64,000 nt of DNA from an uncultured Actinomycetes bacterium. GTDB lineage: Bacteria > Actinomycetota > Thermoleophilia > Solirubrobacterales > Solirubrobacteraceae. The position numbers and the translations under genes are program-made. The stretch is taken from the NCBI GenBank assembly GCA_937888775.1, contig CALAQT010000035.1, forward strand, positions 1 to 64,000, in the 5' to 3' direction. The notes below the pieces were generated by a model that was not told where the DNA came from, did not search any database, and saw only the letters and a program-made list of their open reading frames with translations. Shown here piece after piece: positions 24,701 through 27,088 of this stretch (position 1 is the stretch's first letter; each line of letters opens with the position of its first letter).

Positions 24701-27088
24701 CAGCGTCTCGTGGAACTCGTCACCCAGTGGCTCGGGCAGCGCCTCGGCATGCTGGAGCCGTTGATCCAGGAGCGCCATCACGGCGGGAACCTGTGATTGC
24801 GCGCGCTGGTGGGCGAGGAAGATCCTGTACACCGCCTCGTCAAGCTCGGGCCCGCGCTCCAGCCCGTGCACGCCGTAATGGGCCAGCGCGCGCGCGAGCC
24901 TGGCGACGAACGTCTCCGGCAGGCCCTCGCGCTCGACATCGAGCGAGTGCAGGTAGGACCGAAAATGCTCACGGGGGCTGCGGACGCGTTCGCCTTCCTC
25001 CTCGTCGAGGTCCTCTCGCTCTGCCGCCGCCCAGTTACGGGAGAGCTCAGCCAGGTCGGCGAAGATCGTGAGGATCTCCAGCTCGCCGTGAAGCAGCTCG
25101 GGATCATCGGGGGGTAGCTGGTTCCGTGCCCGCTGGAACTCGCCGACGAGCCGGCGGGCGTCCTTCACGCTCACGTCAAAGCCCATGATCAGACCGCGCA
25201 GGGCGTCGAGGTGCTGGCGTGCGCGTGGGCGGGCGCCGGAGTCCGATGCGGCGGCCGACGTGCCGAAGCCGATCCGCGGGGCGTCGGGCGCTGCCACGCC
25301 TCCGATCGTCACCGCCTCGACGCTCACAAGCGGCGCCCCCGCTTCGACGTGGGTGCTGCCGGTTACGAACACCTCCCGGACCCGGCCGGCATGTGTGGCC
25401 ACGACGGTCATCTCCATCTTCATCGCCTCCAGCACTGCGACCGGCGACCCTGCATTCACCTCATCGCCCGGGGCCACGTTCACGGTCACGACGAGCGCCG
25501 GCGAGGGAGCCCGCACGACCCCTCCCTCACCTCGCGACACGCGATGGGCGACCCCCTCGACCTCCACCAGGTGATCCCGACCGTCGGTGACCGACTCGAC
25601 TTTGAATGTCCCCTCGCCGATGGCAAGCCGGCGCGCGAACCGGCGGAGGGGCTCGACCTGCACCTGGACGCTCCCGCCGTCGGCCTCGATCATGTAACGA
25701 CGGGGCCCCGTCTGCGTGGCAGCGAGACGGTAGGTCTGCCCTCGGTGGCGGAGGTCGAGCGTCCGGCCGATCTCGTGGCTCGCCTGGGGCCGGCCGCGAC
25801 TGGCGCCGGCGTAGAAGCCGCGGCGCTCGAGCTCCTGCTCGAAGTCGTAAATGTCAATCGCGGCTGCGAGCAGGGCGATGTCGGCGTGGCGGGTCAGGAT
25901 GTGGCCGTCCGAAGCGACGAGGCGGTCCAGCCAGCCGGTGTGAGCGTTGCCGGCGATCATCTCGGGGCGGGCGAGCAGATCGAGCAGGAATGCCTTGTTC
26001 GTCGTACCCCCGCGCACGACTACAGTCGTCTCTGCCAGCGCGCGGCGCAACCGCGCCCTGGCCTCCGGGCGGTCCCGCCCCCAGCCGATGACCTTGGCGA
26101 CCATCGAGTCGTACTCAGCGGGGATTCGGTCGCCCTCGGCGACGCCGGTCTCGACCCGCACCCCCGGCCCGGACGGCAGCATCAGGAGCTCGACTGTCCC
26201 AGGCGCGGGGGCAAAGCCCCGTTCGGGGTCTTCGGCGTTGAGCCGGGCCTCGATGGCATGGCCGGACGGACGTGGCGGCTCCCCCTCCAGGTGCCCGCCC
26301 CCAGCGACGTGCAGCTGGAGCTTCACTAGGTCGAGCCCCGTCGCCACTTCCGTAACAGAGTGCTCGACCTGCAGGCCCGTGTTGAACCCGAGGAACGCGA
26401 AGGCCTGGTGTTCGGGTTGGTAGAGAAACTCGACCGTGCCGGCGTTGCGATACCCGACCGACAGGGCCAGATCAACCGCCGCAGCCCGCAGCTCGCGCTC
26501 TTGCTCAGCGCTTAGCGCCGGGGAGCTCGACTCCTCGATCAGCTTCTGGTTGCGGCGCTGGGTCGAGCAGTCGCGCACGCCCGGTGCCCAGACGGCACCG
26601 TGGTGGTCGGCGATGATCTGAACCCCGAGGTGGTGCGCGCCGGTGAGTTGGGGTGTGGCGACCGGCATGCCCATCTGCTCCGCGAACAGCTTGGCGGCGA
26701 TCTTGTTGCCCAGGCGTCGCATGACCGCGGGCGGCGGACCGATGAAGACCACCCCGATGCGAGCGCACATCTCGGCGAAGGCTGGATCCTCGGCGACGAA
26801 GCCCCAGCCGACCCAGGCCGCGTCAGCCGCGCTGGCGCGGAGCGCCCGTTCGAGCTCGCCGTGGTCAACGTATGGGCGCTGCCCGCCGATGATCATCGCC
26901 TCGTCGGCCTCGCGCACGAACATCGCCCCCCGCTCGACCTCGGCATGCAACGCGATCGTCCGCACCCCCCAGCCGTGCTCGAGGTTGAGCTCTCGTACCG
27001 CGCGGATCAGGCGTACTGCGGCCTCGCCACGGTTGACGATCGCTACGCGTCTGAATCCGGGGTCACCCTCCGAACGCCGCTCGGACAT
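21749..27088 (-). CDS. Single-chain acyl-CoA carboxylase with degenerate biotin carboxylase domain
   Basis: 1,779 residues from ATG 27088, which overlaps the end of the condensing-enzyme gene by 26 bp. Order: biotin carboxylase-like domain (about 1-400), biotin carrier (EAMKMEM with acceptor Lys557), a long helical middle (about 600-1150) and carboxyltransferase halves (about 1150-1779; GIGGYDRIMGPNGQAQYW, PVVVLANLSGFDGSPESLRK, YGAEIGRAVVNFDGPIVF). The first domain keeps its N-terminal lobe and QRRNQK but passes directly from GMPVATPQ to LTGAHHLGVQII, skipping about 75 residues that normally hold the glycine-rich ATP loop. The catalytic strand reads FLGFNTGLQVEHS where FLEVNTRLQVEHP is expected, losing the metal-binding Glu and catalytic Arg. 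Carboxyltransfer from another enzyme's carboxybiotin is conceivable. Function is inferred. Confidence 0.85.
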   Translation of the reverse strand: MSERRSEGDPGFRRVAIVNRGEAAVRLIRAVRELNLEHGWGVRTIALHAEVERGAMFVREADEAMIIGGQRPYVDHGELERALRASAADAAWVGWGFVAEDPAFAEMCARIGVVFIGPPPAVMRRLGNKIAAKLFAEQMGMPVATPQLTGAHHLGVQIIADHHGAVWAPGVRDCSTQRRNQKLIEESSSPALSAEQERELRAAAVDLALSVGYRNAGTVEFLYQPEHQAFAFLGFNTGLQVEHSVTEVATGLDLVKLQLHVAGGGHLEGEPPRPSGHAIEARLNAEDPERGFAPAPGTVELLMLPSGPGVRVETGVAEGDRIPAEYDSMVAKVIGWGRDRPEARARLRRALAETTVVVRGGTTNKAFLLDLLARPEMIAGNAHTGWLDRLVASDGHILTRHADIALLAAAIDIYDFEQELERRGFYAGASRGRPQASHEIGRTLDLRHRGQTYRLAATQTGPRRYMIEADGGSVQVQVEPLRRFARRLAIGEGTFKVESVTDGRDHLVEVEGVAHRVSRGEGGVVRAPSPALVVTVNVAPGDEVNAGSPVAVLEAMKMEMTVVATHAGRVREVFVTGSTHVEAGAPLVSVEAVTIGGVAAPDAPRIGFGTSAAASDSGARPRARQHLDALRGLIMGFDVSVKDARRLVGEFQRARNQLPPDDPELLHGELEILTIFADLAELSRNWAAAEREDLDEEEGERVRSPREHFRSYLHSLDVEREGLPETFVARLARALAHYGVHGLERGPELDEAVYRIFLAHQRAQSQVPAVMALLDQRLQHAEALPEPLGDEFHETLDRLIAAAQLRYPVVGELARSVRFRVFDRPVIEAARARVLAAAREQLRYLAAHPDVPDHAERIEALVDSPEPLIRLLAERIGGREGHGPLLELLTRRYYKVVALEEVSSLRLDGRQFVTVAYSLDGRRVQLIATLATASELAAAATAAASLASDCTASESVLEFYLHWSEPAPDADTMAAELTAALNGTQLPRSVRRVTVAVGSRADADVHHFTFRPAVGGFQEERVTRELHPMIARRLHLWRLANFELTRLPAVEDVHLFHCAARENPDDERLVALAEVRDLTPVRDATGRLTALPEPERVLAACLDGIRRVQAQRPPNRRLHGNRVLLYVWPSIEVPLDELVAVTRTLAPITAGLGLEEVLIEARVPAPPDGELRNMAFGFSYQPGVGVTLSVAEPPTEPLPTLDEYAHKALLARRRGTVYPYELLPALTRAGGTFTEYDLNEDARLVPVERPYGSHSAGIVVGVVCTITDRYPEGMVRVAIFGDPTKALGAIAEPEAVRIMRALDLAEDMAVPVEWLAVSAGAKISMESGTENMDWISRVLRRLITFTQAHGEVNVIVAGINVGAQPYWNAEATMLLHTRGILVMTPDSAMVLTGKQALDYSGGVSAEDNFGIGGYDRIMGPNGQAQYWAADLAAACEILFAHYEHTYVAPGERFPRRAQSTDPKDRDVCGYPHYSPNSDFLTVGDIFSTELNPERKKPFDIRAVMRGVADQDHRPLERWAAMAGAENAVVFDAHLGGYPVTMLGIESRPLRRNGFLPADGPDQWTAGTLFPQSSKKTARAINAASGNRPVVVLANLSGFDGSPESLRKLQLEYGAEIGRAVVNFDGPIVFCVVSRYHGGAFVVFSGTLNDNMEVIAVEGSYASVIGGAPAAATVFARDVNARTYADPRVVKLEARLDGAEDDERASLRVAVADLRASVRSDKLGEVAAEFDRVHTVERALRVGSIDAIIPAARLRPHLVEALERGMRRTLEQRLQEADRG
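21763..21768 (-). promoter_or_regulatory. Ribosome binding site of phaC
   Basis: AGGAGG on the minus strand inside the last codons of the carboxylase gene, 6 bp before the GTG at 21756. It decides the phaC start. Confidence 0.8.

Follow-up and report, generated by a model that had tools for sequence, protein, structure and literature searches.

The fused multidomain carboxylase encoded in the 64-kb stretch of DNA analysed here (hereafter the window) belongs to a kind of soil-bacterial enzyme that provides malonyl-CoA for fatty acid synthesis; it lacks a complete biotin carboxylase (BC) active site, while its biotin carrier (BCCP) and carboxyltransferase (CT) domains are kept. Judged from its relatives, the BC-dead state is clade-wide and arose repeatedly, and ATP-dependent carboxylation of biotin has very probably been lost while the function of biotin and CT stayed under selection. 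Supply of the carboxyl group in trans is the most likely mechanism; we put the probability that the BC domain is now a non-catalytic scaffold, with the carboxyl group provided by an AccA3-type subunit, at about 0.5.

Domain layout and lesions of the carboxylase

The gene (21749..27088), which like all its features given below lies on the minus strand, is a single open frame of 1779 aa with the Pfam domain order BC-BCCP-central-CT on one chain. Both the N-terminal BC domain (residues 12-123, 26720..27055; PF00289) and the C-terminal BC domain (residues 280-388, 25925..26251; PF02785) are retained, followed by the biotin carrier domain with an EAMKME motif (residues 525-589, 25322..25516; PF00364), the ACC central region (residues 950-1143, 23660..24241; PF08326) and the CT domain (residues 1273-1767, 21788..23272; PF01039). 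The Pfam ATP-grasp model yields a partial match that starts only at profile position 89.

Alignment with 119 relatives placed the defect at residues ~145-148 (26645..26656), where 68 residues of the ATP-grasp lid are absent: full-length neighbours such as P0002 have 1847 aa, and the junction of the window protein reads GMPVAT|PQLTGAHHLGVQII (VAT, then PQLTG). The original prediction that the ATP loop is missing without loss of frame thus holds, with the size corrected from 75 to 68 residues. The absent segment carried the glycine loop and the K159/E201-type residues, labelled, like E211, E288 and R292 below, in what we take to be E. coli BC numbering. Glycine further replaces the metal-binding Glu (Gly234, 26387..26389; E288 position) and the catalytic Arg (Gly238, 26375..26377; R292 position), two substitutions already proposed from the window alone and borne out by the relatives, which carry Glu and Arg there. 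A third one, which had escaped the first reading, is Gly155 (26624..26626) for the Glu of the RHxE (H-x-E) motif at the E211 position.

The biotin carrier and carboxyltransferase had been described as normal in the first reading, and the alignment agrees. Lys557 (25418..25420), the biotin attachment site, falls in a column that is Lys in 120/120 aligned proteins (the best 120 of 7493 relatives), and only 4 of 253 CT columns that are invariant among distant proteins are changed. Searching the 64-kb window with tblastn, we found neither a second BC nor a detached lid (best other matches E 0.6 and 0.24).

Predicted fold of the truncated domain

Structure modelling, which had been suggested as a check, predicts that the BC domain closes without its lid. 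For residues 1-595, AlphaFold2 with 59 alignment rows gave a mean pLDDT of 89.9 and a pTM of 0.83, with a pLDDT of 79 across the ten junction residues. The model matched yeast ACC (5csl) in Foldseek with a TM score of 0.82 by query length and an rmsd of 5.5 Å; in VIA-align the rmsd was 1.4 Å over 372 residues against E. coli BC (2j9g) and 1.6 Å over 377 residues against M. tuberculosis AccA3 (5mlk). Despite its truncation, the domain is thus predicted to fold.

Recurrent loss of the BC active site among relatives

A search for relatives returned 7493 scored proteins; our counts refer to the best 120, of which 117 have a scorable N-terminus (P0086, P0089 and P0096, which have none, were left out of the residue counts). 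Of these 117 proteins, 42 have lost or altered one or more of 11 catalytic BC positions and 38 two or more, and the lid is missing (fewer than 60 lid residues) in 20, the window protein included. The lid gaps start and stop at differing places in the alignment. Of the 20 proteins picked by lid deletion alone, 15 carry a substitution at E288, 16 at R292 and 17 at N290. P0086 and P0089 start within the C-terminal BC domain, which could be a true loss of most of the BC or a contig truncation.

As a control, the same count was made with a separate AccA3-type BC, from relative genome G001, as the query: just 1 of the 120 matches listed had a loss, a Lys-to-Arg change. Likewise, 19 rows of separate BCs (~13 distinct genes, one of them truncated, from 11 genomes) show no loss at any position that they cover. 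Set against 42/117, the 1/120 in the control indicates that catalytic loss in the multidomain relatives exceeds chance.

The same evidence bears on a sequencing or assembly artefact, which most of the relatives being metagenomic might suggest as the cause of the lid deletion. At 90% identity, the window protein clusters with others into nine members, which need not be identical, on three contigs, the longest of 113 kb, and a further 19 relatives lack the lid, with varied deletion boundaries. Because of this cluster and these additional lid-less proteins, the deletion is not an assembly slip, and with the control count at 1/120 an artefact is barely credible; for practical purposes we regard it as refuted.

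We mapped both states onto a 116-row tree built from the BCCP, central and CT regions. The dead state required 8 changes (well-supported branches force 7 of these) and the lid deletion 11 (9 forced); the means after shuffling were 34.4 and 18.7, respectively. Assuming irreversible losses, the tree implies ~9 lineages with a dead BC and ~11 with a lid deletion; single distant proteins (P0091, P0100, P0120) make up three of the nine. P0095 and P0096 were left out of the first tree and P0086 and P0089 also out of the later ones; since the tree is quick and has open forks, all these lineage and change counts are approximate. P0015 and P0018, both in the main clade, are identical to the intact reference P0088 across the 29 BC positions compared, and the ancestor of this clade therefore probably had an intact BC.

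A second, distant clade, queried with the dead copy of genome G044 (from locus L120), showed loss of at least one of the 11 positions in 18 and of at least two in 10 of the 120 matches listed (one, P0122, is truncated), and the biotin Lys was present in 120/120 of the matches listed. In a set of genome loci comprising 110 rows (5 reference proteins and 105 locus proteins), 95 rows were intact at 18 core BC positions, repeats included: L081-L086 are earlier loci (L081 = L010), L010 equals P0077 and L101 equals P0088. Four of the non-intact rows (L061, L079, L115, L116) miss positions for want of sequence; core BC positions differ in L010, L040, L062, L068, L103, L113 and L114. Single changes in the second clade and in the locus set may be tolerated. 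L040 and L062, multidomain copies from separate contigs of a single Acidobacteria MAG, both have Trp at R292 and Val in the glycine loop.

Constraint on the biotin carrier and carboxyltransferase

Columns invariant in 25 distant intact proteins were used to compare 38 degenerate proteins, picked by eye, with 44 near-intact ones; five ambiguous and four partial proteins were left out. The degenerate proteins had lost 18.6% of these columns in the lid, 17.2% in ATP-grasp, 11.2% in the C-terminal BC domain, 7.2% in BCCP (41/570), 2.5% in the central region and 2.3% in CT, vs 1.8%, 2.5%, 1.3%, 2.6%, 3.1% and 1.6% in the near-intact proteins. The 20 lid-deleted proteins alone had lost 20.6% in ATP-grasp and 2.4% in CT, and four intact proteins of the same clade 1.5% and 2.4%. 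By this measure, constraint on the CT matches that in intact relatives.

When all columns were scanned for positions that near-intact proteins keep and dead proteins do not, 32 emerged, of which 25 lie in the BC; the dead label is itself partly defined by catalytic positions, and P0091, P0100 and P0120 were removed from the dead set. The lowest retention within the BC (28-31%) was found for R292, N290 and E288. Outside the BC, columns 891 (Q to R) and 1801 (S to T) were retained even less and may be clade markers.

Pairwise comparison of the window gene with four intact genes gave dN/dS values of 0.18-0.20 for CT and 0.19-0.29 for the ATP-grasp remnant; four pairs of intact genes gave 0.14-0.18 and 0.14-0.25. 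The dN of the ATP-grasp remnant was 2-3x higher for window vs intact (0.111-0.135) than for intact vs intact (0.035-0.066); the dN of CT was raised as well (0.083-0.093 vs 0.048-0.063), in part through greater distance. Against intact genes, the ATP-grasp remnants of L010 and L113 reached dN/dS values of 0.36-0.45 and of 0.73 and 0.84, respectively. Thus, the BC remnant of the window gene is relaxed but not free, whereas that of L113 is near-free.

These values also speak to decay in progress, i.e., a redundant enzyme losing its function piecemeal, the BC first and the CT later. The availability of separate BC and CT proteins as an alternative, the scattered and varied nature of the degenerate active sites and the near-free remnant of L113 would fit such a course. 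We consider it improbable, given that loss of invariant CT columns hardly differs from that in near-intact proteins, that the window CT evolves at a dN/dS of ~0.2 and that the biotin Lys is kept throughout the matches listed in both clades. The intact frame after every lid deletion seen points the same way, weakly, as a full-length search favours such cases.

Because BC loss is recurrent, the AccA3-type control is low, the CT is constrained and the remnant is predicted to fold, ATP-dependent carboxylation is very probably lost. The loss of this half-reaction, one of the possibilities raised in the original prediction, is thereby strongly supported by inference: the lid is gone, Glu, Arg and Glu are replaced, and the active site is repeatedly eroded among the relatives.

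Possible sources of the carboxyl group

A separate BC was found in all 11 relatives' genomes searched, most of which are MAGs. In G001, the genome with P0077 as its dead copy, there is an intact AccA3-type protein with checked domains and an AccD-type CT, along with what reads as an MCC pair and a further BC in a 1244-aa frame, probably pyruvate carboxylase. An orphan AccA3 in G001, with no CT of its own, was considered and rejected, since the AccD-type CT lies ~20 kb away on the same contig. G044 and G068, also with dead copies, each have one other PF02785 protein (frames of 638 and 636 aa, classed as AccA3-type from length) with intact BC residues, next to four separate CTs in G044 and at least five in G068; a single BC would therefore need to supply several CTs, unless other BCs are absent from the assemblies. 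In mycobacteria, AccA3 pairs with more than one AccD, among them AccD5 and AccD6, according to PMC4064979. A separate intact BC is equally present where the multidomain enzyme is intact, so its presence is not diagnostic.

Under supply in trans, the fused enzyme would be unable to carboxylate biotin with ATP, and its biotin arm and CT would still cooperate. The most plausible donor of the carboxyl group would be the cell's own separate AccA3-type BC-BCCP subunit; it would either charge the fused BCCP or dock its own carboxybiotin at the fused CT. The BC remnant may have been kept because enzymes of this type would need the BC fold for dimer assembly; the near-free remnant of L113 argues against a strict scaffold role in that protein. 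If carboxybiotin came wholly from the BCCP of AccA3, the fused biotin Lys need not be kept, which counts against this variant, and the greater loss of invariant BCCP columns in degenerate than in near-intact proteins counts against supply in trans as such.

The boldest rival is an ATP-free acyl-CoA transcarboxylase, in which BCCP and CT would move a carboxyl group between acyl-CoAs without the BC, for example from methylmalonyl-CoA (made by the mutase or by AccA3-AccD) to acetyl-CoA, yielding malonyl-CoA. Biotin enzymes without a BC are known, namely transcarboxylase and the Na+-pumping decarboxylases. Such a reaction would require precisely what is conserved, CT and the biotin Lys, and the methylmalonyl-CoA mutase family occurs in 6/6 relatives' genomes searched; it is equally present alongside intact enzymes, and the known transcarboxylase has two different CTs where the window protein has one. 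Acceptance of both acetyl- and propionyl-CoA by the related SACE_4237, as described in PMC6491548, would suit this reading, which we rate as rather unlikely. In its furthest form, also rather unlikely, a eukaryotic-type ACC would have turned in many parallel events into a transcarboxylase that works without ATP, from methylmalonyl-CoA to acetyl-CoA, with the dead BC only a dimer scaffold and malonyl-CoA fed to the KAS III-like neighbour. A Na+-pumping decarboxylase partner was rejected, as the decarboxylase beta subunit OAD_beta (PF03977) was detected in 0/6 relatives' genomes searched.

The carboxybiotin might also come from an intact multidomain paralogue paired with the dead copy in a hetero-oligomer, the enzyme type being active as a dimer (PMC6491548). 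G219 holds two multidomain copies (L117 and L119, the second cut by the contig end), neither of them flagged dead. G001, G044 and G068, which do have dead copies, show one multidomain copy each, and both copies of the Acidobacteria MAG described above are altered at R292, making such pairing quite unlikely.

Neighbouring genes

Upstream on the minus strand, a KAS III-like gene (27063..29012) overlaps the start of the carboxylase by 26 bases; downstream, the ORF of a PhaC-like gene (20014..21855, minus strand, start uncertain) overlaps its end (Pfam and ORFs). The fused enzyme would yield malonyl-CoA (or methylmalonyl-CoA), possibly as a substrate for the KAS III-like enzyme encoded next to it. 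Of 84 loci, some with short flanks and one (L125) a repeat of L010, 8 have a KAS III-like homologue directly next to the carboxylase and one more has it at a distance of 1.4 kb; we therefore rejected this gene as a fixed partner. The overlap in the window could alternatively hint at a non-enzymatic role of the carboxylase as scaffold or regulator of its KAS III-like partner. Strict conservation of the CT and the biotin site opposes this, as does the failure to find a KAS III-like neighbour next to any other dead copy with DNA (some flanks being short), and we hold such a role to be highly improbable.

The ~330 N-terminal residues of the KAS III-like protein have no Pfam match, and this long form is kept in relatives beside the multidomain carboxylase. 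Next to the dead carboxylase of G001, two divergently arranged neighbours (L125:14007-16309) are presumably FabH and FabF, judged by their motifs. Elsewhere in the window, one ORF (55074..57590) resembles by eye a fusion of a [2Fe-2S] small subunit with a molybdenum-hydroxylase large subunit, and another (36898..37908) a lipoprotein of the sugar-binding type in which a lipobox-like Cys is followed by a very long serine-rich segment.

Relation to known carboxylases

Like the BC-less transcarboxylase and decarboxylases, the window protein would combine a biotin carrier and CT without a working BC, as its sequence suggests; their domain make-up differs. Eukaryotic multidomain ACCs (yeast 5csl, human ACC1) share the central region (Pfam ACC_central) and the fold of the N-terminal third with the window protein; unlike it, they are larger and have an active BC. 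The two-subunit AccA3/AccD carboxylases of actinobacteria use a shared BC, an arrangement like that proposed here for the dead enzyme, whereas in the window protein a dead BC is fused with the CT and with a further BCCP.

SACE_4237 of Saccharopolyspora erythraea, the characterised member of the actinobacterial multidomain type, is, according to PMC6491548, an essential homodimeric ACC for acetyl- and propionyl-CoA, with the same ~200 kDa chain of BC, BCCP, CT and a conserved central region. In contrast to this type, the window protein lacks the BC lid and catalytic residues, and no ACC activity is therefore expected from it alone; it descends from the SACE_4237 family but is not counted here as a working ACC. 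The single-chain long-chain acyl-CoA carboxylase LCC (4rcn) likewise has all domains on one chain, and its BC part matches the model structurally. It differs in being a hexamer with an N-terminal CT and a C-terminal BC-BCCP, and the central region is described solely for SACE_4237 and the eukaryotic type (PMC6491548). Our searches of the open-licence PMC literature turned up no report of a multidomain ACC with a degenerate BC.

Implications

Several of the lid-deleted proteins are named carboxylases in their source annotations, and automatic annotation may thus give a wrong picture of ATP use and of malonyl-CoA supply in Solirubrobacterales from soil. The usual view of fused carboxylases is that fusion lets a single chain perform both half-reactions; here, one of the two appears to have been dropped repeatedly and the other kept. 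This raises the question of whether carboxybiotin passes between carboxylase complexes in living cells, or whether an ACC may run as a transcarboxylase.
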